Positions 6,929 to 27,578 of a stretch of 28,324 nt of DNA are shown here, one piece after another. Source of the stretch: a virus; IMG/VR virus record IMGVR_UViG_3300017746_000099, positions 1-28,324 of that record; one strand, written 5' to 3'. The notes below the pieces were generated by a model. That model saw only the letters and a program-made list of their open reading frames with translations, was not told the origin of the DNA and ran no database searches. The position numbers and the translations under genes are program-made. Positions within the stretch are counted from its first letter, which is position 1. The number at the start of each line of letters is the position of its first letter.

Positions 6929-6940
6929 GTTATAAATATG
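6929..6940 (-). promoter_or_regulatory. Candidate late promoter motif CATATTTATAAC
   Basis: The minus strand reads CATATTTATAAC, 29 nt upstream of the ATG at 6899 and immediately after the preceding stop. The same 12-mer occurs at 25005-25016, with close relatives ahead of four other block-leading genes. Its reverse complement contains TATAAATA, the T4 late promoter consensus. Confidence 0.5.
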
Positions 6941-9900
6941 TTACTCTATTAGTTTCTTATCTCTTAAATCAATTATTACTTCATCAGGATTTAAATCAAT
7001 TAGTTCTGTTGGGAACTCAGGAAATATTATACCTGAAGGTGTGTTATCTGCTTTAGTTAAAGGTTTATATATAGTTACTATACTTCCTGATTGTGATGAT
7101 GTAGAAAATGAACCAGTAGCTGTTGAACCTGGTTCATTTGCTTCATTTACTAAATCAACGTTGGTAGAAGGTATAAACTCTTTAGTAACAGGTAAAGAAC
7201 CATATGGAAATTCTCTATTTATTAAAATTGTATTAGGGGAATAAACGTATCTTCTTAATAAAAAGAAATCTATATTAACAGAACGTTGTACTACACCATC
7301 CAATGTTATTTGTAATTGTCCACTATTTTCTTCTGGTGTTAGGTAATTTAAAATTTTATAAGAAAATGATTCATTATTTTCAAATCTTATTTCATCATAA
7401 TCACTACCCCCCTCATTAAATATTTCCCCTGGTCTTATAACAGACCAAGGTATACCTGTAAATGGAAAAGCAGAATCAGCTGGTTCTAATCCTCCAGGAA
7501 ATCTTTCATTTGCTGAGGCTGTGTAATTTAATTCTCCCATAATATCACCACTACCATATGAAGAATTTCCTATAGAAGATACTAATGTAAGAGTAGTTAA
7601 ATTTATATTAGGTTCATTTTCTTGATTTGAATATTTAAATTCCCAAAATGGTGCTATAAAGTTCTTTGGATCTGTAAATGGATCATAATCTAAAGGTACT
7701 GAAGGTGTTTTAGTACCTTGAATAAACATTTGAACAAAAGGTCCATTAATTGGTGGATTAATCAATACACTTGTACCCCCACCAGTATAAGCATAAGGTG
7801 CATTAGTGGGATTCCAATAATTTACTGCTGAATATGCTGCTTGATCTGCTCCAACTGGAGTATAGTTTTGGGTAACTTCCCATCTATATCTTCTGTTAGC
7901 TCTTATAGGTCTATTAGGTGAAGATTTTATTTTTATTATAAATGTAGCATATATAGCACTAGTAGGATTAAGAGTACTTTTAGTCCCACCCTGTTTAGAA
8001 GAAATTCCAAAATCTCCTAATTGTTGTAATGCCGCATTTAAATCATAAGGTAATACATTAATTTGTATACCTGCATTTGCACCAGTTAAAAATTGAACAC
8101 TTTTTATTCCATTACTACCATTTATATCAAATAGATTTAAAGTTTTATTAGTATTTGGACCATAGTTTACAGAAAATGTAGCTTCTAAATCACTTCTAAA
8201 AAGAGTTTCATCAGCCCATTCACTATCTACATAAGGTTGTGTATTATTTTGAACATTAGAATATTTTAATTTTATTACTATACTACCTACTGAACCCCCT
8301 GAATTATTACCAGCTAATTTAGTATCTTTACCAAAATTATTTGTTCGAATAAAAGATGGAGGTGTAGATGGAAATTGAGCTTCCAAGTTAATAGTATAAT
8401 TATCAGATAACTGATTACCCTGAGGTTGAAGACTACTTCTTGTTGGATATTGTGGGTCATCATTATCTTTAGCAAATTGATCTTGGTTAAAAAATACTTC
8501 TCCAGGTACAGCATAAGCTACAGATTCTGTTACAATAGAAGATGAAGCATATACTGTAGGTAATGTAGGTAAGATAGGTGTACTACCTGAGAAACCATAT
8601 CTAGCATCATAAGTAACTGTATAATCAGTTGGTATAAGATTTGTAGAACCACTTACCAAATTAGGTAAAGTTATAGATAGATTATTATTTGAACTATAAG
8701 GAGCACCCTCTATATTCATACTATAATTTACAAATTCATCATCATTAGATTCTACATTGTATGTATCTGACCCTAATGGAATCCATGTTGAAAATGATGT
8801 TGCACCTGTTTGAGAATATAAATATGGAGTAGGTAATTTTGTTACCTCATATACAGATTGTATATTATTTAAAATATCATACTGAGTTGAACCAGAAGAT
8901 TGGTTTACACCTATTCTAGCAACTCCATTTGCTTGCCAACTTCCTTGTATATCAAAAGCTGTATAAGGAGAAAGATTAGGTTGTTTAGCATCTCCACCTT
9001 CATTAATTAAATACTTTATATTAAATAAAGTTTTATTATTAATAACAGGGTATAAATCTACAATTTGATCACAATAAGCAAGATACGCTGTTTTATAGTC
9101 AATAACAGGTACTTTTCCAAATCCACCTTCTAAACCATTTATAGTATTTACATCATTAGCAGATGATTTAGCTCCATTATATCTAGGAATAATAGATGAG
9201 GTTTGAGTATAAAAAGATTCTGGTACTGTAGATTTAATAGCTGTATTATTTTTTATTGCTTTAAAGTTAGAGGGATTGTATAAACCATAAGTAAAACTTA
9301 AAGTTATTTGTAAGTCTCTAACAATAGCACTTCCAAAAACAGGGGTTAATACTGATTGTGGTATAGTAAGTAAATCTCCCTTTTTATGTCCTCTACCTGG
9401 ACTGCTAACTGTAATACTAAGACCAGTTCCCAAATCTATAGAAGTAATATCTAATTCTAAACCTGTTCCTGTACCTGTAGTTGTAATTTGTAATGTACCA
9501 TTAGGTAAAGGAACTTGACTAACAATAATATTAGCCCCATCTGTCATAACCTCACCAGAAAGAAGTTCCATTGTTGATTTATCACCATCACTAAATGGTG
9601 AATTTGCACCTGTTGTAGTTCCATCTGTTATAGTTATACTATATTTTCCTACTGAAGGGAATGATCCAAAAGGTGTATAAGTAGGATTACCAGAAACATT
9701 AAATTGTAAATTACCACCTATAGAAGGAAATTTTATTATTCTATTAGTGGAATTTTCCCATATGTCAAAGTTATTAGTAATCATAACTGAAGCATTGGCT
9801 GAATCTCCTTCGGGATAATATCTATTATTTATTTCAACTACAGGAGAATTCACTTGGGGACTAGAAACAAATCTAAATATCCCTGTATCATAAGGATTTA

Positions 9901-11710
9901 CAACTGTACTATTATATTCATAAGCATTAAATGAAAATGAATCTAATGGTGTAAATGGAGCTTGAGATAATGATAAATTTTGACCTACTTCTAATAAAAA
10001 ACTTTCCGGTATATTGTATTCAATTTCTTGTATAAGAGGATTTCTTCTTAAAGTATCATCTGTAACTATAAGATTATATAGAGGTTGACAATCAACGGCA
10101 TTAGCAAACCCATCAGTATCACCAAATGCATTTTCTATGAATACGGGTACTTTACCATCTCCAGTTTCTTCAGCTGATGGAGTATTAAACTCTAACTCAT
10201 ATGTTTGTACTACTAGTGCTTGTTCTACTGAAGCAGAGTTTGCTGAACCAGATGATACTGATAAAGCAACTGATAAACAATCTTTTAAAGATAATGAATC
10301 TTTAGGTATTAAAGTACTCATTGTAACTGCTAACCCTTCATGTATTAAAGAAGATGAGAAGGCAGATGTAACATAAGCATCATCTAATGTAGTTGGTACA
10401 GCAGAAGGATAACTACCAGTGTATATTAAAATAGAAGCTGTTTGAAAAGTAGGTTCTCCTCCATCAGTATCAAAACCATAATGGGGTTCATTAGGAGAAA
10501 TAGAATAAGTTGTATTAGTATCTCCATATTGAAATCCTGATTCTACTCCTGTCCATGATGTTAAAAACATAGAAACTGTTACTTGAACATCAGATTGTGG
10601 TATTTGATTAAAAATATATAATCCATCAATAGATTCAGATAGTGAAGATGAATATGATATATAAACATCATTTACTCTAGTTGAAAATATATTTTGTACT
10701 GTACCAGTAGAGGTAGCAGATGGGTTAGTAATGGTATTAGTAAAGTTAGCTACAGGTGTAAAACTGGGAGTTCCAACTAGTGCTGTATATGTAACTTTTT
10801 TATCTTTTGGTAAATCAAAATATACTGGTGTTAAAAACTCATCTGAAGAGGTATATGTTACTCTAACTGTAGTAGTACTTAAGTTACTAGCTTCATATTC
10901 TACAAAATCGTCATATTCACAGTATAAACCAAACTGAGAAGCTCCTATAGCTGAAGGAGTTGGTACGTTGAAAATACTACTTGTAAAAGTATATTCTCCA
11001 TTAGTTAAGTTACCACTTGATACAGGAACAGTTGGAAAACCAGTTGCTGTTTGAGATTGAACTAAAGTTGCTACTACAGCTTGAGTAGAATCTTTAACTT
11101 CAATAGTAGCTCCAGATCCTGGAGGTGTTGGAAGTGAACCGTATCTTGTAAACACATAAGGTTGTACTCCTCTATTTTCATTTTCTACAGTAAAACTTCC
11201 ACTAAAAGCTACTATACTATTTACTCTTTCTTGAGTACTAATATTACCATTTGAACCTAATACTCTTTCATCATACTTATCTACTATATCAAAAATATTT
11301 CCAGTATTAAATGGAACATTAGAATATAAAGGAAAACCAGTTGGTAAAAATGGAGATGCAGAAGTTCCAGATCCTGTTTCAGTTAACATATATGCTTTAT
11401 ATGGTCTGTGAAGGTGTGGATTATATCTATAAGCATTAGCATCCTCAGTATTTGCGGGTTGCCATCCTCTATATACCCATAGTTCTTGATTATCTGCTAT
11501 GGTTATTTCTGTAGTATCATCTACTCCATTTTGAACAAGGTATGTAAGATTAGCTCCTAAAGAAGAAATCTTAGCTGTAGTGTTACCATTAACTATAGGA
11601 TTATTCTTAGGGGAGGTAAGTAATGTATTCATACCACTTGTTGTGGATGAACCAGAAACAAATACTTGATTTGTTGTTTCTTTAAAGTAATATTTTATTT
11701 CATCTGCCAT
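6941..11710 (-). CDS. Very large phage tail/baseplate structural protein
   Basis: A 1589-aa, Ser/Thr/Asn-rich, predicted all-beta protein without catalytic motifs or signal peptide. Three segments stand out. Around residues 533-563 is DCQPLYNLIVTDDTLRRNP, similar to a DCNPLxN motif I recall from marine phage structural proteins. About 735-803 is a Gly-rich module (TGTGTGLELDI ... GRGHKKGDLLTIP) shared with two other proteins in this window. About 827-930 begins VPESFYTQTSSIIPRYNGAKSS. The C-terminus ends in a charged IIDLRDKKLIE. It lies between the giant wedge-like protein and the fibre-proximal genes and has its own upstream motif, so it may be a baseplate periphery protein, but this is inference. 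Start is ATG with an A/T leader. Confidence 0.7.
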   Translation of the reverse strand: MADEIKYYFKETTNQVFVSGSSTTSGMNTLLTSPKNNPIVNGNTTAKISSLGANLTYLVQNGVDDTTEITIADNQELWVYRGWQPANTEDANAYRYNPHLHRPYKAYMLTETGSGTSASPFLPTGFPLYSNVPFNTGNIFDIVDKYDERVLGSNGNISTQERVNSIVAFSGSFTVENENRGVQPYVFTRYGSLPTPPGSGATIEVKDSTQAVVATLVQSQTATGFPTVPVSSGNLTNGEYTFTSSIFNVPTPSAIGASQFGLYCEYDDFVEYEASNLSTTTVRVTYTSSDEFLTPVYFDLPKDKKVTYTALVGTPSFTPVANFTNTITNPSATSTGTVQNIFSTRVNDVYISYSSSLSESIDGLYIFNQIPQSDVQVTVSMFLTSWTGVESGFQYGDTNTTYSISPNEPHYGFDTDGGEPTFQTASILIYTGSYPSAVPTTLDDAYVTSAFSSSLIHEGLAVTMSTLIPKDSLSLKDCLSVALSVSSGSANSASVEQALVVQTYELEFNTPSAEETGDGKVPVFIENAFGDTDGFANAVDCQPLYNLIVTDDTLRRNPLIQEIEYNIPESFLLEVGQNLSLSQAPFTPLDSFSFNAYEYNSTVVNPYDTGIFRFVSSPQVNSPVVEINNRYYPEGDSANASVMITNNFDIWENSTNRIIKFPSIGGNLQFNVSGNPTYTPFGSFPSVGKYSITITDGTTTGANSPFSDGDKSTMELLSGEVMTDGANIIVSQVPLPNGTLQITTTGTGTGLELDITSIDLGTGLSITVSSPGRGHKKGDLLTIPQSVLTPVFGSAIVRDLQITLSFTYGLYNPSNFKAIKNNTAIKSTVPESFYTQTSSIIPRYNGAKSSANDVNTINGLEGGFGKVPVIDYKTAYLAYCDQIVDLYPVINNKTLFNIKYLINEGGDAKQPNLSPYTAFDIQGSWQANGVARIGVNQSSGSTQYDILNNIQSVYEVTKLPTPYLYSQTGATSFSTWIPLGSDTYNVESNDDEFVNYSMNIEGAPYSSNNNLSITLPNLVSGSTNLIPTDYTVTYDARYGFSGSTPILPTLPTVYASSSIVTESVAYAVPGEVFFNQDQFAKDNDDPQYPTRSSLQPQGNQLSDNYTINLEAQFPSTPPSFIRTNNFGKDTKLAGNNSGGSVGSIVIKLKYSNVQNNTQPYVDSEWADETLFRSDLEATFSVNYGPNTNKTLNLFDINGSNGIKSVQFLTGANAGIQINVLPYDLNAALQQLGDFGISSKQGGTKSTLNPTSAIYATFIIKIKSSPNRPIRANRRYRWEVTQNYTPVGADQAAYSAVNYWNPTNAPYAYTGGGTSVLINPPINGPFVQMFIQGTKTPSVPLDYDPFTDPKNFIAPFWEFKYSNQENEPNINLTTLTLVSSIGNSSYGSGDIMGELNYTASANERFPGGLEPADSAFPFTGIPWSVIRPGEIFNEGGSDYDEIRFENNESFSYKILNYLTPEENSGQLQITLDGVVQRSVNIDFFLLRRYVYSPNTILINREFPYGSLPVTKEFIPSTNVDLVNEANEPGSTATGSFSTSSQSGSIVTIYKPLTKADNTPSGIIFPEFPTELIDLNPDEVIIDLRDKKLIE

Positions 11711-11728
11711 ACTCTATTGTAATAAATA

Positions 11729-11740
11729 ACATAAATATTT
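11729..11740 (-). promoter_or_regulatory. Variant copy of the late promoter motif
   Basis: The minus strand reads AAATATTTATGT, 18 nt upstream of the ATG at 11710, in a 35-nt gap. It keeps the ATATTTAT core of the motif and diverges at the 3' end (GT in place of AAC). The gap is extremely A/T-rich, including a run of ten T on the plus strand at 11738-11747, so this copy alone is weak. Confidence 0.35.
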
Positions 11741-11745
11741 TTTTT

Positions 11746-14700
11746 TTAAATATTATATAAATATAATATACATGATACTGGTTCTGTAGGTGTTTCTGCA
11801 AATATATCATTTGGTGTAAGACCACTAAAATCTACTGAATACCATGTGAAAGTCCTAGCTTGTGTGCTACCTATTCCAGAAGTTTGTGCCATTTGATTAC
11901 GTGATGTTGCCGTAATTGGAGTTTCATAAAGAGCACCCTCTAATACATTTGTTATTGTTCCACTAGTAGGATTAGAAAGATTACCATTAAAAAATATTGG
12001 GTAAAAATTAGTTCCATCACTAATACAAAACATTTTATTTTGGGATGAAGAATTAACATCTCTAAGGAATCCTGGGTCACCAGTAAATTGATTAGCACCT
12101 ACTGATTGTGCTTGGAATCTACCAAATGGAGGAGTATTATTTGCATAATTAGCTGTACTTATATTCCAAGTAAAATTTGTAAAAGGAGCTCTATTTCCTG
12201 TTAATCTTACTTTTATTTCATAATAATTACTAGGTACATTTCTAGGTCCTGCAACAATAGAAGTACCAGATGCTATATAAGCTCTAGTATTCCAATCAGT
12301 TTCTCCTTGTAGTTGAAATTCAAAAACAGGTGTTGTAGTATCCCACCCAAAAGGTTCTATTACTAAACCTTTAGTCCATGAAATACTATCAGCTGCTAAT
12401 CTAATAACTGTATCAGCTGCATTTCCACCTTGATTAGTATTAGTAAATAAATTATATTGAATAATGTCACTAAAGGTTAAACCAGTAGCAGGTATTGCTG
12501 CAGGTGGACTATAAACTTCCCAAACAGGACCTATAGGAACACTTGAAGCTGTTATTGAACCTGTGTATAACTGTAAATCAGTTTGACCTGCATTTCCTAC
12601 TTCTGATGAATTAACTAAAACTTGGGTAGTAGATTCTATAGCATTCATAAACCAAGGATATGTACTTGGAGTATATGATGTAATATTAGTTACATCAGTA
12701 TCTATTTCTTTTTTTCCTATATTAAAGTTTCCAGTTTCATCAGTATTAAATCCATCACCAGATGAAGTGTAATAAACATTACCTTCATTATCATCTATAA
12801 AAAATGTAGCATCATCCCATCCTCTAAGAAAAGATTCAGTTGGAAAAGTGGGAACTGGAGGAAAATATCCTTGTGGAACTGATTGAGTTAAATTAATTGA
12901 AGGTGTTACATTTGGGTCCATCCCAGATGCAGTTGCTAACCAATTTAATTGTCCACTTGCTGAAAATGTTAAATCGTAAAAATTAGCATCATTAGAACCT
13001 ACTACATCAGAAGATGGTGGTTGAAAAATTTCTAATAGTTGAGCATTTGTAGTCGCAGGATTATTATCATCTTGTGCTGAAATGCTAGAGATGTACCATG
13101 TTTGAGGGCCACTAATAATAGCAAATTCAAAATCAAATGCTTGAGTAAGATTAAAAGTAATATAGCTACTATCCTTTATATAAGGCATTATAGCATTTCC
13201 ACTAATGTCTGTATCAGATATTTTTATATACTTAACTTTGTTAGTAGGTTGTCTAGTTAAAGTATTAGAATTAGGTCTAGCAGATACACCAAGACCAGAG
13301 GTAGTAGTTATTCCTGCTGCATTTAATACTGCTTCACTAAAAGAGAATATACCTCCCATACCATATTGAGGATTACCACCAGATATAAAATAAGCAGAAG
13401 TAATATTATTACTTGCTACTACCAATCTAATAGTACCTCCACTACCTATACCAGAATAGGTAAAATCTGTAATATCATAATTACCATTAGCTGTTCCAGT
13501 TGTAGAATAACTTACACCACCTATTGGGGTAAGACTATATCCTAAACCAACTTGAGAAGCTATTTTTATAGGTGCTACTGTATCAGCCCAAAACCAGGCA
13601 TTTCCTGCTTGTGGAATTTCAGTTGACAATAAAAAGTTCCCTTCAGTAAAAGTTAGATTATTAAAGTATTGTATATAATACTCATAATTTATATAGTTGT
13701 TTTGACCGAAAAATGCACTACAAATATCCTTCATTCCAACAGCAAAATCACTTTGTTGAAATTCACCGTTATAAAACTCTCTTTGATCTATTCTAGGTAT
13801 TGTATAAGGTCCTTGTCCTGATCCTGTTGTTAAAGATAGTTGATTTGGTAGCTGTGTACCTAAAAGAGTTTGAACTGATTCTGAAAATTCTTGTACTACC
13901 CCTGGGTATATTGATGCAAATCTAGATGCAGATACTTGTACTGCTGTTTGTCCACTATAAGGTGCACCTGAGTAACTTACAGGAGCATTATTTATGTTAT
14001 TAAACTCATCAAATACTCCTCCTGTTCCTCCTTCATACAAATAAATAGAAGAACCACTTATTGTAGAATATTGAGGATATGAACTTGATGAGTTTGGCAG
14101 TTGAAAATCTCTTGGTAAAGATCTTACTGTTCCTGATAATGATAAATCTTTTTGTACTTGAGGTACTATTGTTGAATAAGGATCAGAAGGAGAACCTGTA
14201 TAATAAGTTGACATAGTTGTAGCTATATCAACTGATGGAGGTGCTAATCTATTTCTTTCTAAAAGATTTTGTTTTATTACTACACCTGATGTTAAAGTTG
14301 TATTAGCAGGTGTAAAATCCTTAATCATTTTAAATAATGAGTTATCAAAGAACTTTATTAACCTAATAAAATCATTTATATCATAACTTGATATATATTT
14401 TTTAAAGTATTCATCTCTTAAAGCATCTAAATCAGGGTAAGTATAGCTAGATTCTGATACTTGTCTAGGATCTCCTATATAATCTCCTATATTAAATGCA
14501 CCTATTTGAGCTATAATATCATCATTTACTTGATCAGTAGGTGAAAAAGCTACTTCTAAATAGTCTATACTATGTTCACTACTACTTATAAATACATTTT
14601 GTTGGATAGATCTAAAAGCAGATAAAGTATCTCCCTCAGGAACTACTTCATTTGTTATTTGTATTTTATCTGTAATCTTATTCTTTATTCCTCCTGGTTG

Positions 14701-17843: not shown

Positions 17844-19322
17844 TTACCCGTTAACTACTTTAAAGTAATATTTTTCATCCATTACAATCACATTATTATC
17901 TATATTTGTTTGTATTAATATTTGATAGTTTCTTTCTGGTTGTAAACCATTCATATAAACAGTAAAATAACTACCTGTTGGATCACAACTTATTTGTGTA
18001 TTTTGTGTGTCGAAATCTACAACAAACTCATTAGTTTCCAAATCTTTTATAGCATAATATGATGCTGATGGTAATGCTTGGTTCTGTGTATAAATAGATT
18101 CAGTTGTATAAACTCTTATAGGGAACTGTGGTCTACAGTTTAATCTAAACTGATTAATACTTTCACTATAAAATATACCTTGATTATCATCTAAGGCAAC
18201 AAATAAATCTGGGGTGGAAACTGTTTCCAATTGTGTAATATCAAATGTTGATAAAGTTACTTCAGCAGGAGTTAAAGCTCCTTCTATATTAGGCAAAGCA
18301 TTTAGTTGCTCTATTGACCAAGTTAAAGTTTCACCTGCTACATATCCTAATCCTATTTCTTTTACATATACATCTAACATAGAAGCACTATTAAAAGTAG
18401 CTCCAAAAGTAGCTCCACTACCAACACCTGCGTAAGTAGGATCATTGGGTAGAGATTGTGTAAATGAGCAAGATATAGAACTGGTTAGTTCATTTATTGG
18501 ATAAGATCCAGTTAATATTCTTCCATGTTTTAAATCACCACTACTAGTACTATAGGTAAAATCTCTCCATTTTATGTCTAACTCAGGAGGATATATAGTA
18601 TTTGTATCTACTGAATAAAAACTTAGTTGGGGAGTTACAGCACTTGAAGTTACAAATTCTGTTGAATCTTTCCATTTGATTATAAATCCTTCATTTGCTA
18701 TAGGAGTTAAACTACCAATAAGATCATTAGATGAAGAATACCATACTTTAACAATATCAGTTACCTCTGTATTTAAATCTTTATCACTTCTAAGATTAAA
18801 TATTTGTGATGATTCTAAACTTCCTATACCATCATATCCACCTGATCCTGTCCACCAGTTACATCCTCCTTCATTATTACTTCCAGAATAAGAACCAGTA
18901 GTAAGATCTTCATAAAATCCTTCTATAGGCCATTTATTTGATCCTGAATAATCACTAAATACCCAACTTACACCTGTTGTGTTTTGTCTTTGATCTAAAT
19001 ATTGACCTGATCCGTTATTCCAAGAACCGGAAATAGGATAAACATTAACTTCAGATTCTAAAATAACATTATCTGCCTTAGCAATGAATAGCTTTAGACT
19101 AGCTGTAAAGTCAAGAGAACTAGTTACAGATGCTACATTTTGTATTACATTATTTATTTGTAATTGGTCAAATTTAACTAATGATCTAGCTACATTAGAT
19201 ATAGGATTGTTATTAGTTACAAAATTTGATACCTCTAGTATAGGATCCAACCCTGTATTCATAGCAGGTTGTGCACTATAAATAGATGCATCCTGTGTTG
19301 GAAATAATTTATATACTGCCAT
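17844..19322 (-). CDS. DNRLRE-like beta-sandwich structural protein
   Basis: A 492-aa protein beginning AVYKLFPTQDASIYS, followed by MNTGLDPILEV and RSLVKFD. This is the layout of DNRLRE/CBM96-like domains: a strand, the TGxxxxLEV motif and an SRFLVKFD-like strand. Further matching elements are SLKLFIAKA, VNVYPISGSWNNGSG, TDIVKVWY and GFIIKWKDS. After a TNTIYPPELDIKW linker, residues about 293-362 hold a Gly-rich module (YAGVGSGATFGATF ... GLGYVAGETLTW) that also occurs in the 1589- and 1877-aa proteins. The C-terminal part returns to beta structure. DNRLRE domains are found in adhesins and surface proteins. A phage baseplate or side-fibre role is inferred from its place directly after gp6. 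Confidence 0.75.
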   Translation of the reverse strand: MAVYKLFPTQDASIYSAQPAMNTGLDPILEVSNFVTNNNPISNVARSLVKFDQLQINNVIQNVASVTSSLDFTASLKLFIAKADNVILESEVNVYPISGSWNNGSGQYLDQRQNTTGVSWVFSDYSGSNKWPIEGFYEDLTTGSYSGSNNEGGCNWWTGSGGYDGIGSLESSQIFNLRSDKDLNTEVTDIVKVWYSSSNDLIGSLTPIANEGFIIKWKDSTEFVTSSAVTPQLSFYSVDTNTIYPPELDIKWRDFTYSTSSGDLKHGRILTGSYPINELTSSISCSFTQSLPNDPTYAGVGSGATFGATFNSASMLDVYVKEIGLGYVAGETLTWSIEQLNALPNIEGALTPAEVTLSTFDITQLETVSTPDLFVALDDNQGIFYSESINQFRLNCRPQFPIRVYTTESIYTQNQALPSASYYAIKDLETNEFVVDFDTQNTQISCDPTGSYFTVYMNGLQPERNYQILIQTNIDNNVIVMDEKYYFKVVNG

Positions 19323-19340
19323 AGTTTTAAAATATTCTAT

Positions 19341-21197
19341 TTAAAATAATGTAACAACCCTTCCTTTGATATCATTATCTGGGTATTTTAGTTCAAATAT
19401 ACTTGGATCTAGTGATGGAAATATTGTTCCATTTTGTAATGCTCCATTCATATCATAAGCATATTTTGAATAACCTTGAGAAGTACCTGCTACATTATTT
19501 AGATTTACTTGTTTAACAGTTTGTACTCCTTCTACTTGGTCTAATAATACAAAAAGATTTGCTATAATAATAGGTTGATTTATTTGCCATTTATCTATAG
19601 AAAAATAATCTTTTAATGCTAAAATACATTCCTCTATTACTTGATTACCATTATAATCAGGAAAGGTAATTATTTCAAAATTAACATTAAAGTTTATTAC
19701 AAAAGCATTTTTAATACTAATAGTATCACTAATCATTCTATATTGATTAATGTATGTTTTTACATTTTCTTTTAACGCTTGTGACGCCGTTGTTAGTTTA
19801 CCATTTAAATCTGATGATAATAGGTAAATGTCTAATGTAGCGCTAGGACCATCATTTATATCTTCTACTAAAGGTTTTTGTGCCCAAGCTTTAGAAATAA
19901 CTCCATATTTAGGAGGCATACTAAGTGCTCTGATTAAATAATCATTAGATGTTACATTTCTAAGTTGTGTTGGAAAGTTAGAAATAGAATTTTGTCTTAT
20001 TTCCTCTATTGTATCTCCATCTTGACCACCAGAGGCTGCTATTGAATTATTTGTAGCTATAGAATCAAATACATATTGAGCTGTTGTTGGATCTAATCCA
20101 CCTCTTAAAAACTGAATAGTACTAGTAGTAGGATTAGTTAATGTATTAGATGGGATGTTTGATTGAACTCCACCTCCAGTATAATACCTAATAGTTAAAG
20201 TAGTATTACTAGGTGCAATACCATAAGTATTTGTAAATATAAAGTTAGTAGGACTATAAGCTGTTGTTAACTTACTTTGTCCAAATGGTAAACCTAAGCC
20301 TACATTATCAGGATTAGGTATTACATTTTCTGTAGTTTCTGTTGGTGAACCTGCTCCAAACTGTAACTGTAAAGTATTTGCATTTAAAAATCTTGTAGCA
20401 AATCTAGTTTGTACTCTTTTTGTTTGTAAAATATAAGGTGTATCTGCATCTGTATAAGTATTAGGGTCATTAGTATTAACATTTTTTAATCCAGTATACA
20501 CTGCATCTTGACCTAAATAATCTACTTCATACCATTGGTTACCATCTGAATCAAATACATCAATAATATTTGCAAGATTAGTTCCATTTATCTCTGTTGT
20601 AGCAAACTCTTCAGGTGCACCAAATGTTACTGATGTGTTATTAATAACACCACTAAATGCTCTTCTAGTTTTCTTTAGTAAGTAATAAGTAGGGTTACCG
20701 GCTGAAACTTGTGCTACTGATACTGTTGTAGGATCTAAAGAGTTAGATACTGAAAAATCAATAGGTTCATCTGTTGTAAACGATGTAGGACTTCCTGCTG
20801 TTGTACTTACAACTGTATTTTGGTTTACATATAAAGCATAATCAAAATCAGGCACATAAGCACTACCTGATAGTTTAGAAGGTACTTGTTGGAAAAAATC
20901 CACTAAAGTAGTAGCTAAACCTGTTGCTTTAGGTTTGTACCCGTACATATAAGCTAAATCATATAAATTATCATCCTGTCTAGCATACTGAAGGTATGTT
21001 TCTTGGACTTGATTGTCTAAGTAAAAAGATAAAACATCACCTACATAAGCAGCTTGTTCAATAAACATCATACCTGGAGATGTTTCAGTAAAATCTGTAT
21101 ATGTTGTTGGAAAATATGTTTGTGAGTAGTTTATTAGTGTATTTCTATACTCAGCAAAATCTTTATTTATATAGTTTATGTCTCTTCTGATTGCCAT
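19341..21197 (-). CDS. gp6: Baseplate wedge protein gp6 (baseplate J family)
   Basis: A 618-aa protein, close to the 660 residues of T4 gp6. It is a core subunit of the baseplate wedge, forming the ring around the hub that changes shape when the sheath contracts. The N-terminus carries the family signature at residues about 40-70 (SPGMMFIEQAAYVGDVLSFY, then LDNQVQETYLQ), followed by LAYMYGYKPKATG. The C-terminal half contains the baseplate-J-like features ISNFPTQLRNVTSNDYLIRAL and IKNAFVINFNVNFEI. Its start overlaps the gp25 stop as TAATG (base 21197 shared), so the two wedge subunits are probably co-translated. Identification is by motif recognition and the adjacent gp25. Confidence 0.92.
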   Translation of the reverse strand: MAIRRDINYINKDFAEYRNTLINYSQTYFPTTYTDFTETSPGMMFIEQAAYVGDVLSFYLDNQVQETYLQYARQDDNLYDLAYMYGYKPKATGLATTLVDFFQQVPSKLSGSAYVPDFDYALYVNQNTVVSTTAGSPTSFTTDEPIDFSVSNSLDPTTVSVAQVSAGNPTYYLLKKTRRAFSGVINNTSVTFGAPEEFATTEINGTNLANIIDVFDSDGNQWYEVDYLGQDAVYTGLKNVNTNDPNTYTDADTPYILQTKRVQTRFATRFLNANTLQLQFGAGSPTETTENVIPNPDNVGLGLPFGQSKLTTAYSPTNFIFTNTYGIAPSNTTLTIRYYTGGGVQSNIPSNTLTNPTTSTIQFLRGGLDPTTAQYVFDSIATNNSIAASGGQDGDTIEEIRQNSISNFPTQLRNVTSNDYLIRALSMPPKYGVISKAWAQKPLVEDINDGPSATLDIYLLSSDLNGKLTTASQALKENVKTYINQYRMISDTISIKNAFVINFNVNFEIITFPDYNGNQVIEECILALKDYFSIDKWQINQPIIIANLFVLLDQVEGVQTVKQVNLNNVAGTSQGYSKYAYDMNGALQNGTIFPSLDPSIFELKYPDNDIKGRVVTLF

Positions 21198-21604
21198 TAT
21201 GCGAAGTTTAATTCTAAATCATCATTAATTGTAGTGTTTATAACCGAGTAGAATACTTGTACTGTAATTGAATTATTATCTGGATTAGATAATACATTTA
21301 ATTCTTGAACATTAACATTTGGAAAATGTGTACCTATTTTATCAGCAACATCTTCTTTTAAAAAATCTAAATTATTTTCTGTTATTTGGGAAAATATAAA
21401 TTCTCTTAACCCCCCACCAAACTCAGGATTACCTGGTCTTTCTCCTACGTTAGTAAGGAAAAAGTTTATTAAGTTATTCTTAATAGCTTCCTTAGTAGTA
21501 TAATTAGGAGTAAATACTTCACCAGAGTTAAAAGGGAGACTAACTCCAATACCAACTCTTGGTCTTGTATCATTAGGAAATTTTTGTACCGCTCCAAATG
21601 CCAT
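21197..21604 (-). CDS. gp25: Baseplate wedge protein gp25 (GPW/gp25 family)
   Basis: A 135-aa protein of the expected size (T4 gp25 is 132 aa). The hallmark is GERPGNPEFGGGLREFIF at residues 54-71, the conserved gp25 EPR-like motif, where the family makes contact with gp6 and the sheath initiates. The upstream helix (TKEAIKNNLINFFLTNV) and downstream strand pattern (VNVQELNVL, SITVQVFYSV) also fit. Although often called lysozyme-like in databases, no lysozyme catalytic residues are apparent. It lies 4 nt after the 116-aa gene and overlaps gp6 by one base. Confidence 0.93.
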   Translation of the reverse strand: MAFGAVQKFPNDTRPRVGIGVSLPFNSGEVFTPNYTTKEAIKNNLINFFLTNVGERPGNPEFGGGLREFIFSQITENNLDFLKEDVADKIGTHFPNVNVQELNVLSNPDNNSITVQVFYSVINTTINDDLELNFA

Positions 21605-21608
21605 TTTA

Positions 21609-21959
21609 TTATACTTTACCTTTCATTAAATTCATAATTTGATCTGTTGATACTTCTCCTTGTGGTAGTTGACCATCAGGAGATGCGGTATTAGTATTAG
21701 TTACTTGCATAGGTACATTTGCTGATGTAGCAGATATAGTACCATTGGCATCAGGCATCATACCACCTAATACATTTTGAATATTTTCTCTCATAGCTAA
21801 CCTATTATCTTCTGACATAGGTACATTTTGTGGAGCAGGAGTTGTAGAAATCACGGGTTGAGGTGATCTTACTGCTTCCATAAGGATGTCTTTCATCTCT
21901 TCTTGAATAGCTTCTTTAACTGCTTCTTTTACAACGGACTTTAATTCACTTAGTTTCAT
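21609..21959 (-). CDS. Small protein with amphipathic N-terminal helix
   Basis: A 116-aa protein. Residues 1-30 form a strongly amphipathic, Lys/Glu-rich helix (LSELKSVVKEAVKEAIQEEM), a common start among small T4-like phage proteins. The rest is Pro/Ser/Thr/Asn-rich and probably disordered, apart from a short NRLAMRENIQNVLGGMM helix and a C-terminal STDQIMNLMKGKV helix. It heads the gp25-gp6 block and has the conserved upstream motif. I do not recognise its function. A chaperone-like or linker role in baseplate assembly is possible. Confidence 0.65.
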   Translation of the reverse strand: MKLSELKSVVKEAVKEAIQEEMKDILMEAVRSPQPVISTTPAPQNVPMSEDNRLAMRENIQNVLGGMMPDANGTISATSANVPMQVTNTNTASPDGQLPQGEVSTDQIMNLMKGKV

Positions 21960-21976
21960 ATCTTAATATATGTTTT

Positions 21977-21988
21977 GTTATAAATATT
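21977..21988 (-). promoter_or_regulatory. Candidate late promoter motif AATATTTATAAC
   Basis: The minus strand reads AATATTTATAAC, 17 nt upstream of the ATG at 21959, in a 32-nt gap. It differs in one base from the CATATTTATAAC copies at 6929 and 25005 and stands ahead of the gp25-gp6 wedge block. Confidence 0.5.
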
Positions 21989-21991
21989 GAT

Positions 21992-23341
21992 TTAATCTGC
22001 TTTTAAGTTATTTTGGACAATATAAAATGATAACTCATCAATTAATATTTGATCTTCAGCACTAAATGATCCCTCTCCCTTTAAAATCGTTACCCCAGCG
22101 CTATTTTTTCCAATAGCTCTTCTTTTATATAGTTCTCCTGTTTTACTTTGTTGATCTACTTCTACGGAAATTTCAAAACCATTTACATTGGTTACCACTG
22201 GGTTACCTTGTTCTACTGATTCTTTTCCAATAGCTAGTAGTTCATTATTAATTTCTGTCATTTCTAGCCCTTCATTTCCTTCACTTCCGCTAGCACATCT
22301 TTCTATTAATTCATCTATCTTTTTTAGATATCTTAATATTATAATTAAAGATGCTATTAAAAATACTAACGCAATAATTAATGCTTTTCTTAAATCTTTA
22401 TTAGCTTTTTCAAACTTATCAAATAACTCTTTTATACCTTCTAAAGCTGCTACTATAGGATAAACAACTGTAGGAGCTGGAGTGGAAAATATTGCTAATT
22501 TACCTGACTTAAAGGCAGCGCTAACAGCTAAAAATACAGCTACTAAAGCGGTATTAACAGCAATTACTTTATATATGTTATTTAGTTGTTTTACTATAGA
22601 ATTTCTTCTTTGAATAGCTAATTTTAATAGGGCATTACTAGGACATTTTTCTTCACCAGATTGTGCTAATTTTGTAATACCAAAAATAACTAATAATCCT
22701 ATTGCTAATGGAAAAAGTTTATTTTGAATTGAACTTGTAACAGTTAATACAGAATTTTTAACTACAACAATTGATCTTTCAATAGGATCTAAAACAAGAC
22801 TAGATACCTTTTGTATAACTTTATTTGCCTCATTTTTTAACTCAGCTGCTGCTATCTCTGCTGCTAACTCAATATTAACTAAACCAATAGGAGGTAATTC
22901 AGATAAAACCTCACCATTACCAGTAACAATAGTTTGTTGTTGAGGAGCATAACCATCTATGGTATATGCTAATTTAGGTTGACCTAAAACTACATTAGGT
23001 AAACTAGGTAAAACAGGAACTCCAAATCTTATCTCAAATTCTCCATTTGAATCGGTTTTAACTTCTTTATTGCTATCTTCATCTAATTTATATTCCAATT
23101 CACCTTCATCATTTTTAAAAGATTTCATAGGATATAATAATTCTATAAACTTTATATCAACTCCTTGTAAAGGTTCATTAGTTTGTTGATCATATATTCT
23201 TCCTTTAGTAACAAAGGTAGTAATTATAGGTTCATTTTGAGGATCATTTGTTAATTTATCTTTAAGATTAGATAAAACTTGTGAACCTCTTTGAGACTTC
23301 ATAAAACCAACAGCTAATCCTAATAGTAATTCCTCATTCAT
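21992..23341 (-). CDS. Membrane-spanning tail-region protein with carboxypeptidase-regulatory-like domain
   Basis: A 449-aa protein of unusual build. Residues about 43-160 look like a carboxypeptidase-regulatory-like beta sandwich (TKGRIYDQQTNEPLQGVDI, later TDSNGEFEIRF and LAYTIDGYAPQQ). Helical regions follow, with three hydrophobic segments of membrane-spanning length at about 209-226, 257-277 and 319-337, the second extended by another apolar stretch. The C-terminus (about 385-449) has NGFEISVEVDQQ, YKRRAIGKN and SAEDQILIDELSFYI, an ending I recall from Bacteroidota phage structural proteins. It lies 2 nt from the hub/spike gene and 32 nt before the wedge block, so a virion or tail-associated role is likely. 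It could act in membrane insertion during DNA entry or as an assembly scaffold at the membrane. Both are inference. It is too short for a usual tape measure protein. Confidence 0.7.
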   Translation of the reverse strand: MNEELLLGLAVGFMKSQRGSQVLSNLKDKLTNDPQNEPIITTFVTKGRIYDQQTNEPLQGVDIKFIELLYPMKSFKNDEGELEYKLDEDSNKEVKTDSNGEFEIRFGVPVLPSLPNVVLGQPKLAYTIDGYAPQQQTIVTGNGEVLSELPPIGLVNIELAAEIAAAELKNEANKVIQKVSSLVLDPIERSIVVVKNSVLTVTSSIQNKLFPLAIGLLVIFGITKLAQSGEEKCPSNALLKLAIQRRNSIVKQLNNIYKVIAVNTALVAVFLAVSAAFKSGKLAIFSTPAPTVVYPIVAALEGIKELFDKFEKANKDLRKALIIALVFLIASLIIILRYLKKIDELIERCASGSEGNEGLEMTEINNELLAIGKESVEQGNPVVTNVNGFEISVEVDQQSKTGELYKRRAIGKNSAGVTILKGEGSFSAEDQILIDELSFYIVQNNLKAD

Positions 23342-23343
23342 AC

Positions 23344-24639
23344 TTATGCTGTTTTAACTGATTTAGAAGTAAGATTAGGTATTTGAGACTTAATATTAGA
23401 TATACTACTTTTAATTAAGACAGAAGATGCAGCAGCAGCAGGTATTAAAGGTTCACCACTTAATGCGGTTAATAAAATATCTAAATTTTCTAATAAACTT
23501 GAAAACTGAGTTATAAAGGCATCTCCTAATACTAAAGATTCTGTAGCATTTTGTCTACCTAAAGATACTATACCTTTTGGGGATAATAAGTTTACATTAC
23601 CTTCTAATGATTTAATACCTAAACCTTCAACAGATTCCATTGCTATTGATTTTTGGGAAGACATTAAAATACTATCAACATTAGTATTAAATATTAATCT
23701 ACCAGAATTTAAAATAATCTGTTGTTGATTATATGATTGTGGTGATTGTGGTGTTTCTTTTACTATATTTGAAAAGGGAACTGAAGTGCCTTCCCCAGTT
23801 GCAGAACTTGCTACTGATACATCAATTGGAATTTGTTGGGTAGATGTTAAATAAATAGAAGATAAATCTGTATTTATATTTTCAGTTACAGGTAACCAAC
23901 CTGGTTCTCCTAAATCTTTAGGTTGTCCATTTCTTAATATTGTAATAGGACTACCAATTTCACCAGTTGTAGACCAGTTATTTTGTACTGATCCAAAGGA
24001 AGGTGAGGTACTACCTAATCTTAAACTATTAGAAAATCTACCTTCAAAAATTTGATCCCCAATAAAGGAAAGAATGGGTCTAATATTTCCCTTTTCTATA
24101 AAATCTCCTCCGCTATTACCATTTAAATCTAATTGAAATGGAGTACCACTAGGTTGTTGTATATTACCTAACTCAATAGATTCATTACTTTTATTTTGTG
24201 AAGGTGATTCAGTTGTATTAGTAGAATAAACATCAGGAATACCATTTTGTTCTGGGTGGTTCCAGATACCTATAGAGTTTAAATAATAATAGTTATATGT
24301 TCCTGTTGCTTGAGAATTACCTGTTGTAGGTAATCTAAATAATATTACTAACTCATTAACTAATGGATAGTTTTTGAATTGAGGAAATAATGGTTTAGCT
24401 AAGTTACTAGATAATGATTGGTTTGAAATTATTGGTGAGGTAGGTGTTGATACTAATTGATATTGAATAGTTCCTATTCCCCCCCACTGTCCTGTTTGAT
24501 TAAATAACTGAGAGTTACTGTTAAGAGAAATATCCACTACTCTAGCGGTTACCATCTTATCATTTAAAATACCTAACTCCTCAGTATTACCAACAGTATT
24601 AGAATTCCTACTTAAATATGATATTCCAACCTTATCCAT
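23344..24639 (-). CDS. gp5: gp5-like baseplate hub/spike protein without lysozyme domain
   Basis: A 431-aa protein. Residues about 28-130 look like the OB-fold of hub proteins (MVTARVVDISLN ... YPLVNELVILFRLP, then NYYYLNSIGIWNHPEQNG). The central part contains EGRFSNSLRLGST (about 199-211) and GSPITILRNGQ (about 228-238), followed by NTDLSSIYLTSTQQI, motifs I recall from hub proteins of T4-like marine phages. Residues about 310-372 alternate short strands (GRLIFNTNVDSILMSS, GNVNLLSPKGIVSLG) as in the intertwined beta-helix of a membrane-piercing spike. No lysozyme domain is visible between OB-fold and helix, unlike T4 gp5. The C-terminus is helical and Ala-rich. The role would be the central spike under the tail tube. 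Confidence 0.8.
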   Translation of the reverse strand: MDKVGISYLSRNSNTVGNTEELGILNDKMVTARVVDISLNSNSQLFNQTGQWGGIGTIQYQLVSTPTSPIISNQSLSSNLAKPLFPQFKNYPLVNELVILFRLPTTGNSQATGTYNYYYLNSIGIWNHPEQNGIPDVYSTNTTESPSQNKSNESIELGNIQQPSGTPFQLDLNGNSGGDFIEKGNIRPILSFIGDQIFEGRFSNSLRLGSTSPSFGSVQNNWSTTGEIGSPITILRNGQPKDLGEPGWLPVTENINTDLSSIYLTSTQQIPIDVSVASSATGEGTSVPFSNIVKETPQSPQSYNQQQIILNSGRLIFNTNVDSILMSSQKSIAMESVEGLGIKSLEGNVNLLSPKGIVSLGRQNATESLVLGDAFITQFSSLLENLDILLTALSGEPLIPAAAASSVLIKSSISNIKSQIPNLTSKSVKTA

Positions 24640-24641
24640 TA

Positions 24642-24989
24642 TTAGTCCTTAGTTGATAGATTAGTATTTAACTTATCAAGTTCAGCTAATAGTTCTTCTT
24701 TTTCAGAATCGGTAATACCCATTGAATCTTCGTTGCTACTATTATTAATCACACGCTGTACTATAGTAGCCATTTTAATGAGTTGTTCATCGTTTCTAAC
24801 GCCAATTTCTAAATATTCTTTAATAAGCGGTACTATGAGGGTAGCGTCTCCAATATCTTGTACTAGAGGTTTAAGTTCTGATATTAGACCTGATATTTGA
24901 TCTTCTTTTTTCTTTTGATTATTATAAATCTCACTTAATATGTCAGAAAATTTCTTTTTCCCAAATACTACACTGTTTAGACCGCTCAT
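24642..24989 (-). CDS. Small conserved protein next to hub gene
   Basis: A 115-aa mainly helical protein. The first 30 residues (LNSVVFGKKKFSDILSEIYN, then NQKKKEDQI) and the middle (IGDATLIVPLIKEYLEIGV, then RNDEQLIKMATIV) form a pattern I recall from short proteins next to hub/spike genes of T4-like marine phages. The C-terminus is acidic (DSEKEELLAELDKLN). It heads the block with the hub/spike and is separated from it by 2 nt, so co-translation and a role in hub assembly are plausible. T4 gp26 and gp51 are hub-assembly proteins in a comparable position, but I see no sequence basis to equate them. Confidence 0.65.
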   Translation of the reverse strand: MSGLNSVVFGKKKFSDILSEIYNNQKKKEDQISGLISELKPLVQDIGDATLIVPLIKEYLEIGVRNDEQLIKMATIVQRVINNSSNEDSMGITDSEKEELLAELDKLNTNLSTKD

Positions 24990-25004
24990 AATATTTATTT
25001 TTTA

Positions 25005-25016
25005 GTTATAAATATG
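25005..25016 (-). promoter_or_regulatory. Candidate late promoter motif CATATTTATAAC
   Basis: The minus strand reads CATATTTATAAC, 15 nt upstream of the ATG at 24989, in a 41-nt gap. It is identical over 12 bases to the copy at 6929-6940. The sigma-factor gene ends just upstream. Confidence 0.5.
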
Positions 25017-25030
25017 GAAAAAGTGTGAGT

Positions 25031-25741
25031 TTAAAATTTACAATGTCCGTTTTCTAAATAAAAATAATATTTACTTTTAAATATATCATGTAATTTATCT
25101 GCCACTTTTGTGATTTTAGGAGTTTTAACGTCAACTATTTCACGAATGTAGATATAAAGTGCCTTTTTATTAAACACATCTATTGTATCTCTCTTTCTAA
25201 ATAATTCTAAAACTGCATCAGCTATTTGAGCATCATTCTTTTTAGGAAATAATTCATAAATATTTTCGGTAACATGATTAACAAATATATCTATGTATTT
25301 ACTTAAATCATCTACAGTTTCTCCACCTATATCATCCATATCATATGAGTGAGGTGAGTTATCTTGTACTAATACATCAATATCTACTTTTTTAATTTTA
25401 GTATTGTAGTTTTTAGTAGTGTATAATATTAACCATCTTTTTACAATGGTACCAAAATAAGAGTATGCTTTAGCACCTCTACTGGGGTCAAATAAATGGA
25501 TTTTAGATAATAGGAAAACTATTATTTCATGCTGTAGATGCTCTAACTCCTCTACCTCAGTATGGTAAAACTTAAAAGTGTGGATTATATTCTCTGTAAG
25601 TTTAAAGAATGCGTAGTGAATCTTTTCCTTATATATTTTAGATTTAAACTCTGAATCTATAGATGCATTATATAATACAATAGAGTCCTCTGTCTCTTGA
25701 GTAAAATAATTTTTACTTTTAGGTTTTCTTTTTTTAATCAT
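25031..25741 (-). CDS. gp55: gp55-like late-transcription sigma factor
   Basis: A 236-aa protein resembling the RNA polymerase sigma factors of T4-like marine phages. Residues 12-27 (YFTQETEDSIVLYNAS) and 36-60 (IYKEKIHYAFFKLTENIIHTFKF) lead into the sigma region-2-like core LFDPSRGAKAYSYFGTIVKR at 83-102, the part that binds core polymerase and melts the -10. The stretch KKALYIYIREIVDV, then ITKVADKLHDIFKSKYYFYL, near the C-terminus reads like a helix-turn-helix. T4 gp55 is shorter (185 aa) and lacks a full region 4. The C-terminal part here may supply extra DNA contact. It should direct host polymerase to late promoters, plausibly the ATATTTATAAC motif found ahead of the tail blocks. It abuts the upstream gene with no spacer. 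Confidence 0.8.
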   Translation of the reverse strand: MIKKRKPKSKNYFTQETEDSIVLYNASIDSEFKSKIYKEKIHYAFFKLTENIIHTFKFYHTEVEELEHLQHEIIVFLLSKIHLFDPSRGAKAYSYFGTIVKRWLILYTTKNYNTKIKKVDIDVLVQDNSPHSYDMDDIGGETVDDLSKYIDIFVNHVTENIYELFPKKNDAQIADAVLELFRKRDTIDVFNKKALYIYIREIVDVKTPKITKVADKLHDIFKSKYYFYLENGHCKF

Positions 25742-26032
25742 TTAATTTGCTTTAAATCTTTCTAGTTTATTTTGGATTTCTTGGATATGCTTAAAAAACC
25801 ATCCAATCTCATCATCTCCCTCAAACATTCCCTTTTCATCAATTTTATTTAATCGTTCACTGGAATATTCTATTTGTTTAGTGAGTTCAATAATGTAGTT
25901 ATCATAATCAATCATTCCATCTTCTAATTTTTCTAATTTACGAAGAAGATTAATAACTGCAAATCCTAAAATTAAAACTATAGGGGATAAAACCCCTACT
26001 AGCACTTCTAATATCTCAAATTCAACTGTCAT
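25742..26032 (-). CDS. Small single-pass membrane protein with coiled coil
   Basis: A 96-aa protein. Residues about 10-30 (VLVGVLSPIVLILGFAVINL) form one transmembrane segment, followed by a Lys/Glu-rich coiled coil. The C-terminal stretch GMFEGDDEIGWFFKHIQEIQ is a motif I recall in small T4-like phage proteins. The start codon overlaps the HD gene stop (ATGA), so the two are translationally coupled. An i-spanin-like function could be imagined from the topology, but there is no partner o-spanin or holin/endolysin beside it, so the function stays unknown. Confidence 0.65.
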   Translation of the reverse strand: MTVEFEILEVLVGVLSPIVLILGFAVINLLRKLEKLEDGMIDYDNYIIELTKQIEYSSERLNKIDEKGMFEGDDEIGWFFKHIQEIQNKLERFKAN

Positions 26033-26805
26033 AAGCTATCTAACATATTTTTTAATCCTGGGCTGGCTATAGTACCTAATGCTTTAGATTTTATATTTGT
26101 ATTCTTGTTATTACCCAAGGTACGTGACTTCTTTTGGGGCTCCACATTTTTACCTGAGAGTTTTGGTAACCACTCCATTTCAAACTCTATTCGTGCTGAC
26201 ATTAAATCTGCTTGGTGGAGTATAAAAGGTAAAGATGTACGAGGTTTTTGTTCGGGCATGAATGTTTTCAAATATTTTGTATTTGCCTCATCATATAACC
26301 CATCATGTGTCTGAATAGCAATCATCTCATTAAACGAGTACTGGATGTTATGTGATTGGAGGAGAAATAATCCTCTATCGGGAACGGAAGCAAATGATAC
26401 TTTTTTATTAAACATATAATCCTCACCCAGCTTTTCTCGTCTCCAGTTATCAGTTTGAGGGATGTATGATTCATTTTCCTCATCACCCATTTTACCTAAA
26501 TCGTGGTTGATAGCGCTAAATACTAACTCTTCTTCGGTGAATGTCGTCATATCACAACCGGCCTCAGCCCATACAGTGGATAACGTGAGCGAAGCAGATA
26601 CCACACGATTTACGTGATAAACATACCCACCAGGAAATGCACTATGGTATTTATCTAGATGGGATGCAGGCATAAGGATTATTCTTTCCTCATACTTTTT
26701 ATAGAAATCCAATAATGCTTGTTTTCTATCTCCTGTAATATATTTCTCAATATTACCTGTGAATTCCTCCCAATTTGATTGGATTTGCTCTGCTGTCAAC
26801 TTCAT
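26029..26805 (-). CDS. HD-domain metal-dependent phosphohydrolase
   Basis: A 258-aa protein with the HD superfamily pattern. H64 lies in GGYVYHVNRV, the H101-D102 pair in AINHDLGKMGDE, H167-D168 in IQTHDGLYDE, and D200 in LHQADLMSARIEFE. These would coordinate one or two divalent metals for phosphomonoester or phosphodiester hydrolysis. The substrate is unknown; nucleotides or cyclic nucleotides are possibilities. The C-terminal 45 residues are basic, Asn/Lys-rich and probably flexible. HD proteins of this kind are frequent in T4-like marine phages next to the late sigma gene. It ends in TGA forced by the ATGA overlap with the next gene and starts 3 nt after the 62-aa gene. Confidence 0.85.
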   Translation of the reverse strand: MKLTAEQIQSNWEEFTGNIEKYITGDRKQALLDFYKKYEERIILMPASHLDKYHSAFPGGYVYHVNRVVSASLTLSTVWAEAGCDMTTFTEEELVFSAINHDLGKMGDEENESYIPQTDNWRREKLGEDYMFNKKVSFASVPDRGLFLLQSHNIQYSFNEMIAIQTHDGLYDEANTKYLKTFMPEQKPRTSLPFILHQADLMSARIEFEMEWLPKLSGKNVEPQKKSRTLGNNKNTNIKSKALGTIASPGLKNMLDSL

Positions 26806-26808
26806 AAC

Positions 26809-26997
26809 TTACCCTTCTCTAGATGATAATGGTTCATTTTCTATTTGACTCCTTACTTCCTCTACTAGTTCGCCTGCTTTTTCTAATGCTTTTAGATACG
26901 TTTCTAGTGGTTCCTGCTTACTAACTATTCCTCTTAGATTTCCTAGTACTCCCTCTAAATTGTCTAGTTGTTTGTTTATATAATTTCTGTTTTTCAT
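26809..26997 (-). CDS. Small helical phage protein (62 aa)
   Basis: A 62-aa, almost wholly helical protein (NYINKQLDNLEGVLGNLRGIV ... YLKALEKAGELVEEVRSQI), likely a short coiled-coil hairpin. It lies 3 nt before the HD gene. I recall comparable 60-70 aa proteins in T4-like cyanophages, but with no assigned function. The ATG is chosen because the helix begins directly after it. The leader is A-rich with no clear Shine-Dalgarno. Confidence 0.6.
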   Translation of the reverse strand: MKNRNYINKQLDNLEGVLGNLRGIVSKQEPLETYLKALEKAGELVEEVRSQIENEPLSSREG

Positions 26998-27049
26998 AAC
27001 TTTGTTTGTTTAACTTTATTCATTTATTATTCCTACTCTCTCTACCTAA
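26998..27049. other. Non-coding leader between two small genes
   Basis: About 52 nt lie between the TAG at 27050 and the ATG at 26997. The minus strand is purine-rich (TAGGTAGAGAGAGTAGGAA) then A/T-rich. No copy of the ATATTTATAAC motif and no convincing hairpin are seen. The adjoining 27050-27109 is coding-like and listed separately. Confidence 0.4.
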
Positions 27050-27109
27050 CTACACAGGGTCGAAGTTACTACCCTTCTTTGGCTTAGGCACGTTTTTTGT
27101 AATAAGTTT
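27050..27109 (-). other. In-frame coding-like extension behind a UGA stop
   Basis: Directly after the UGA at 27110-27112 the same reading frame continues for 19 codons to a TAG at 27050-27052. The product would be KLITKNVPKPKKGSNFDPV, a basic, protein-like tail with a compact GSNFDPV ending. Read through, the upstream protein would be 168 aa. Nineteen of the 21 genes here end in TAA, and the only other TGA is forced by an ATGA overlap. UGA followed by A is a context reported to favour readthrough in E. coli. A point mutation or base-call error is the main alternative. Confidence 0.45.
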
Positions 27110-27556
27110 TCAATATTTCTTTTTTAGTTTCTGAATAGTGTGAAGAAATGCGCATTTTTCGTATTCTTCTACCTCCTCAAAATATAAAATAGCTTCCCCT
27201 AATGTTTGTTTTAGGGGACCACTTTTATAATCCATAACTGCTTTACAATGATTTTTATTTTTTAAATCTAAATCTTTGACATAATACCAAGCTCTATTAA
27301 ATACAGCAAATGATGCTGCTTCTTTAGTAGTTTCTAAATCAATAGCTCCTGAACTTTCTTTATCTAAGAATTTTTTTAGTTTTTGGTGAAATACAAGATG
27401 ATTAATAATAAGTTTAACAAACATACCTAATTTGTTCATAGGTTGTTCTAACTCCTCTCCAACCAACTTTTCAAATTCTCTTATACTTTTTTTCTCATCA
27501 AAGTTATCATCATCACTACTACCAAATAGACTAAATAGTTTATTTTTATCAATCAT
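27110..27556 (-). CDS. Conserved-looking phage protein of unknown function (148 aa)
   Basis: A 148-aa, mostly helical protein. An acidic N-terminus (SSDDDNFDEKKSIREFEKLV) is followed by EQPMNKLGMFVKLIINHLVF (about 38-57), a region AASFAVFNRAWYYVKDLDL, and a C-terminal helix pair GEAILYFEEVEEYEKCAFLHTI. No catalytic or metal-binding motif is visible. I recall similar short acidic proteins in T4-like marine phages but cannot name a function. It heads the block leading to the HD protein and sigma factor, with an AATATTTATAAT motif 10 nt upstream. It ends in a UGA with an in-frame 19-codon continuation, so the annotated C-terminus may be incomplete. Confidence 0.7.
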   Translation of the reverse strand: MIDKNKLFSLFGSSDDDNFDEKKSIREFEKLVGEELEQPMNKLGMFVKLIINHLVFHQKLKKFLDKESSGAIDLETTKEAASFAVFNRAWYYVKDLDLKNKNHCKAVMDYKSGPLKQTLGEAILYFEEVEEYEKCAFLHTIQKLKKKY

Positions 27557-27566
27557 ATTATTTTTG

Positions 27567-27578
27567 ATTATAAATATT
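27567..27578 (-). promoter_or_regulatory. Candidate promoter motif AATATTTATAAT
   Basis: The minus strand reads AATATTTATAAT, 10 nt upstream of the ATG at 27556, in a 41-nt gap. It matches the CATATTTATAAC copies at 10 of 12 positions. It is the closest copy to its start codon, so if it is a -10 element the leader would be very short. Confidence 0.45.

Follow-up and report, generated by a model that had tools for sequence, protein, structure and literature searches.

Late promoters of phage T4 are read by gp55 and consist of a -10-like box without a -35 element (PMC2988020, PMC7892883). In silico late promoters in KVP40, 44RR, S-PM2 and Aeh1 (reviewed in PMC2988020) are host-adapted variants of the T4 consensus. 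In Bacteroidota, promoters read by the host sigma-A carry a TTG at -33 and TAnnTTTG at -7 (PMC9723704). Our searches of the open-access literature turned up no description of late promoters in Bacteroidota or Flavobacterium phages.

The sequence analysed here (the window) is the IMG/VR virus contig IMGVR_UViG_3300017746_000099 of 28,324 bases, whose minus strand carries all main genes. Several features of this locus are like those of the T4 system: an A/T-rich, -10-like box of 8-10 bp without a -35 element stands before virion genes, six of eight of its bases match the T4 late box TATAAATA in gene direction, and the phage encodes a protein with putative homology to sigma region 2. The locus also differs from that system. 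The consensus is [AC]ATATTTATAAyAAA instead of TATAAATA, and the hosts are Bacteroidota. The late promoters of KVP40, 44RR, S-PM2 and Aeh1, likewise found by sequence, stay close to TATAAATA, whereas in the present element the central part of the box has changed.

Motif copies, their placement and their conservation

A scan of both strands of the window for MATATTTATAAY gave four exact matches, all on the minus strand and each within a gap of 32-41 nt. The 3' end of the element precedes the ATG by 29 nt at 6929-6940 (gene 6234-6899), by 15 nt at 25005-25016 (gene 24642-24989), by 17 nt at 21977-21988 (gene 21609-21959) and by 10 nt at 27567-27578 (gene 27110-27556). The candidate late elements and the genes behind the 21977 element are:

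6929-6940, minus strand: candidate late promoter element CATATTTATAAC, exact, 16.9 bits; heads the block 6234-359
21977-21988, minus strand: candidate late promoter element AATATTTATAAC, exact, 18.6 bits; heads the block from 21609
25005-25016, minus strand: candidate late promoter element CATATTTATAAC, exact, 18.7 bits; upstream of 24642, 23344 and 21992
27567-27578, minus strand: candidate late promoter element AATATTTATAAT, exact, 17.7 bits; upstream of 27110
60-71, minus strand: probable further late element AATATTTATTAC, 12.9 bits; its gene lies beyond the left contig end
11729-11740, minus strand: weak match AAATATTTATGT, 4.3 bits; precedes gene 6941-11710 and is questionable as a late promoter
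21197-21604, minus strand: gp25-like baseplate wedge gene (phrog_261, 2.1e-20), in the block putatively driven from 21977
19341-21197, minus strand: gp6-like baseplate wedge gene (phrog_10646, 1.6e-10), in the same block

The block behind the 21977 element thus begins with gene 21609 and continues with the gp25-like and gp6-like baseplate genes; the gp6-like protein is 45% identical to the baseplate wedge protein of Flavobacterium phage immuto.

A preliminary description of this DNA had listed six sites as copies of one motif. Its coordinates and strand for the four strong copies were reproduced by the exact scan, and it had overlooked the plausible site at 60-71. The assignment of all six sites to a single motif did not hold: the 11729 site reaches 4.3 bits, as against 16.9-18.7 bits for the four strong sites, and GTATATTTACGG at 28292 scores -0.6 bits and is of the host type described below. 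Orthologous upstream sequences were sought for the 11729 site, and none were recovered.

Across the whole window, ATATTTATAA with one mismatch was not enriched (20 found, 21.05 expected), and TATAAATA occurred at a frequency near chance (13 vs 9.2). Exact ATATTTATAA was present in 4 of the 6 gaps longer than 30 nt, which together comprise 302 nt. For comparison, dinucleotide shuffles gave 0.03 per shuffle, and none of 5,000 reached four. It is therefore the placement of exact copies, rather than the abundance of one-mismatch copies, that is non-random. The motif is thus commoner in these gaps than in their shuffled counterparts.

To collect relatives, the gp6-like baseplate protein and the sigma-like protein were each used as the query of a scan, and each scan returned at least 80 loci. 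Among the matches listed, the motif was found upstream of gene 21609 orthologues in 70 of 70 non-identical sequences, upstream of gene 24642 orthologues in 65 of 73 (exact; 72 of 73 contain ATATTTA), and upstream of gene 6234 orthologues, in the gap of the 6929 element, in 11 of 14 (as ATATTTATA). Least conserved was the element upstream of gene 27110 (14 of 60 among the matches listed). The inverse motif was absent from the orthologous gaps of all four genes among the matches listed, and other gaps represented by nine or more sequences contained the motif at most once. The consensus of 97 distinct sites is the [AC]ATATTTATAAyAAA given above; at base -1, A or C is the rule (T in 9%), and the TAA extension is almost invariant. 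The motif recurs in the same gaps of related phages and in the same orientation, which marks it as a signal shared by a clade.

Comparison genomes were five related contigs of 64-155 kb and phage immuto (complete genome of 160 kb; host annotated as Flavobacterium sp. LMO8, Baltic Sea). The density of ATATTTATAA per kb in gene-direction gaps and in coding DNA, respectively, was 5.86 and 0.00, 2.01 and 0.02, 1.63 and 0.03, 1.46 and 0.01, and 5.59 and 0.00 in the five contigs, and 0.74 and 0.00 in immuto. In the contigs, 22 of 49, 22 of 75, 16 of 80, 9 of 47 and 7 of 17 gaps had a match, compared with 0.5-1.9 gaps in shuffles. A late-motif matrix trained without immuto identified 21 sites in the gene-direction gaps of this phage (12.8 kb), 2 in its gene-direction coding DNA (147 kb) and 4 on the opposite strand of gaps.

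Late sites in the related genomes precede terminase, portal, sheath, tube and baseplate genes, and the targets in immuto include the terminase, portal gp20, tail sheath, tail tube and tail spike genes. Within 100 nt of the start, late genes had 26 late-class and 3 host-class sites and early genes 0 and 5, respectively (Fisher p=2e-4), with gene lists and matrix cut-offs being the analyst's own choice. The three host-class sites at late genes are all in immuto; one of its genes, gp107, has both classes, and a tie rule assigned it to the host class. The two groups were less well separated at operon distances, with 58 late-class and 9 host-class sites for late genes and 27 and 29 for early genes; the nearest upstream site was of the late type, at kilobase distances, for some early-class genes (27 of 56). 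Placement, conservation, orientation and late-gene association all support the earlier proposal that the element is a late promoter heading virion-gene blocks.

Host-type promoters in the same genomes

De novo motif search identified a second class of sites in the same genomes, TTG-N20-TATATTT or TAnnTT, which resembles the Bacteroidota sigma-A promoter. With spacings of 19-21 nt allowed, 101 of 122 host-type sites had the TTG at a distance of exactly 20 nt, a sharp peak. In contrast, 19 of 136 late-type sites (about 14%) had a TTG at 19-21 nt, and the late class has no general -33 box. Two sites in the window are of the host type:

28295-28302, minus strand: -7 box of the host type, TATATTTA, distinct from the late motif; the -33 region is truncated where the contig ends
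27061-27091, minus strand: host-type promoter candidate GTG-N20-TAACTTCG, a conserved dyad with 20-nt spacer, present in relatives

The first corresponds to the 28292 site, which is conserved in relatives as TTGG...TATATTTACGG; in three of them (L090, L011, L096) TTGG precedes TATATT[TC]ACGG by about 20 nt. For the downstream gene, 27598-28305, the probable start is 28263 (MKNLFNILL..., resembling a lipoprotein signal sequence) instead of 28305, which would place the 28292 site upstream of the gene.

The second lies in the gap 26998-27109, which had been noted as the exception without a late motif. The exception is real, and the host-type promoter there explains it. The pattern [TG][TA]G-N20-TAnnTT was matched by 38 of 39 upstream sequences, the window's own included, and the 20-nt spacer scored best in 34 sequences. 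The summed score of the dyad (7.3) was only moderately higher than in shuffles (6.2); the fixed spacer and the place of the dyad are the stronger evidence. In relatives, the leader that separates this promoter from gene 26809 (26998-27060, minus strand, in the window) is purine-rich with a conserved AAUAAAGG, and in many of them it has a short GGGU...ACCC hairpin. No consensus RNA structure was found over the whole leader.

Host-type promoters were also observed in the record of Microcystis phage Mel-JY01 (PP395634.1, L194-L197), with 14 sites of the form TTG-N19-21-TAnnTTTG in gaps (for example L194 around 1660-1707) and 8 in 169 kb of coding DNA. Mel-JY01 also encodes a relative of the sigma-like protein. 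Together, these two observations suggest that its host belongs to the Bacteroidota and is not the cyanobacterium given in the record.

The sigma-like protein and the proposed late switch

The host-type dyad at 27061-27091 precedes an operon with the gene order 26809, 26029, 25742, 25031, of which the first and last genes are:

26809-26997, minus strand: first gene of the sigma-like operon (ORF table)
25031-25741, minus strand: gp55-like sigma protein P0001, 236 aa, candidate reader of the late element

P0001 alone among the window's proteins matches Sigma70_r2. Within its family, 12 of 16 members matched Sigma70_r2 (best 1.8e-4), 8 of 16 matched TIGR02937 (7e-5) and 11 of 16 matched the PHROG late sigma profile, suggesting a homology to sigma region 2 that is weak yet recurrent. 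An AlphaFold2 model of P0001 (mean pLDDT 77.7, pTM 0.44) matched mostly sigma factors, with a best PDB E-value of 0.09; in a viral library it matched a cyanophage sigma factor at 3e-3 and the sigma-like factor of Klebsiella phage KPV15 with a TM-score of 0.65 by target (E 0.54). A PDB sequence search with the sigma-like profile returned nothing useful. The protein is barely alignable to T4 gp55: direct profile comparison by hhalign, over 70 columns, gave E=0.029 at 1.7% probability. It is also longer than gp55 (185 aa), and its family has a conserved helical C-terminal part at about residues 160-231. As to other readers, an Rpb2-type phage polymerase was sought and not found, and the profile for T7-type polymerases, PF00940, matched no control, which makes that search uninformative. 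The earlier proposal that the neighbouring gp55-like protein reads the element is likely by genomic position and homology, from which recognition is inferred.

We therefore consider it probable that [AC]ATATTTATAAyAAA is a -10-like late promoter element to which the gp55-like protein directs the host core polymerase. According to this model, the RNA polymerase of the Bacteroidota host, carrying the host's sigma-A, would read early genes from TTG-N20-TAnnTT promoters, among them the operon encoding the gp55-like protein (25031-25741). This protein would then guide the core enzyme of the host to the late element, a site without a -33 box, and virion-gene blocks would be transcribed from a few nucleotides downstream of the element, often with very short leaders. 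The distance from motif to ATG ranges from 12 to over 80 nt, and its lower edge near 12 nt fits transcription starting about there. In the window the 27567 element also precedes the sigma-like operon, which may therefore be read late too; possibly, transcription of gene 25031 from 27567 provides feedback in late infection.

Competing explanations and the relation to T4

The element could instead be a variant of the -7 box of host sigma-A, read without any phage sigma factor. The ATATTTA core is common to the late element and the host-type class, a promoter type that the same phages use for other genes, the host box being TAnnTTTG (PMC9723704), and the minority of late sites with a suitably spaced TTG also fits. 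However, the late element lacks a general -33 box, has A or C at the position where the host box has its first T, and carries downstream the TAA extension that is absent from the host class. It also sits before late genes. Taken together, these differences make a host-box variant unlikely.

The A/U-rich composition of the element, its proximity to start codons on the mRNA strand and the lack of an evident Shine-Dalgarno sequence at these genes would also be compatible with a role in RNA, as a processing site or translation enhancer in long late-transcript leaders. Such a role is quite improbable, given the widely varying distance to the ATG and the absence of the element from other starts in the same blocks. 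Moreover, an intrinsic terminator stands 6-38 nt ahead of 12 late-type sites, leaving little room for another promoter in between, and these sites support new initiation over RNA processing there. This evidence is confined to the twelve cases themselves and is not an argument from frequency, since terminators were not clearly more frequent before late sites (12 of 136) than before other gaps (18 of 257).

The reverse complement of the motif contains TATAAATA exactly, as had been pointed out. The element might then be a T4 late promoter facing backwards, from which antisense transcripts start or which functions in inverted form. We regard this as very improbable. The element points the same way as the downstream gene in practically all conserved cases, and this orientation is fixed in orthologous gaps across the clade, on which ground the inverted T4 reading is rejected. 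Read in reverse, the element would fire antisense into the preceding gene. Gene-direction TATAAATA is found in none of the window's gaps, and inversion is unnecessary because, in gene direction, six of the eight bases of TATTTATA agree with TATAAATA; of the two options offered earlier, a changed consensus in normal orientation suffices.

That A/T-rich gaps hold the motif string by chance has next to no probability: the entire window is A/T-rich and one-mismatch copies are at chance level window-wide, but the shuffles did not match the observed gap count, the motif is conserved in orthologous gaps, and it is enriched in each of the six further genomes.

The preferred reading, a phage-directed late promoter, thus appears to work like T4 late transcription without being a strict member of that system: the consensus differs, and the coactivator gp33 (PF16805) was not found in the relatives by a search that recovers it in T4 (6e-28), although a divergent form could escape. 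Three related contigs have genes for PolB, a clamp loader like gp44 and a clamp-like protein. Immuto has a family A polymerase, and none of the three proteins was detected there. The clamp profiles PF02916 and PF00712 gave no match, and both miss the clamp-like protein found beside PolB. This protein of about 245 aa lies beside PolB and the clamp loader at L165:15730-16470, L173:1346-2071 and L184:13963-14694, and one of four aligned members matched phrog_223 (1.5e-6).

Tentatively, the late sigma may have re-targeted its promoters to the Bacteroidota -7 register, with late transcription in the immuto lineage proceeding without a phage sliding clamp. The ATATTTA core shared with TAnnTTTG would reflect this re-targeting, and A or C in place of the leading T, together with the TAA tail, would act as discriminators.

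The late switch described here is very probably a variant of the control system known from T4. It yields a testable transcription map for Bacteroidota myoviruses, with early promoters of the host type and late promoters of the phage type. The phage group concerned is large and mostly uncultured, as the number of loci recovered in each of the two scans indicates, and it would provide a case of a T4-like late switch adapting to a host polymerase with unusual promoters.
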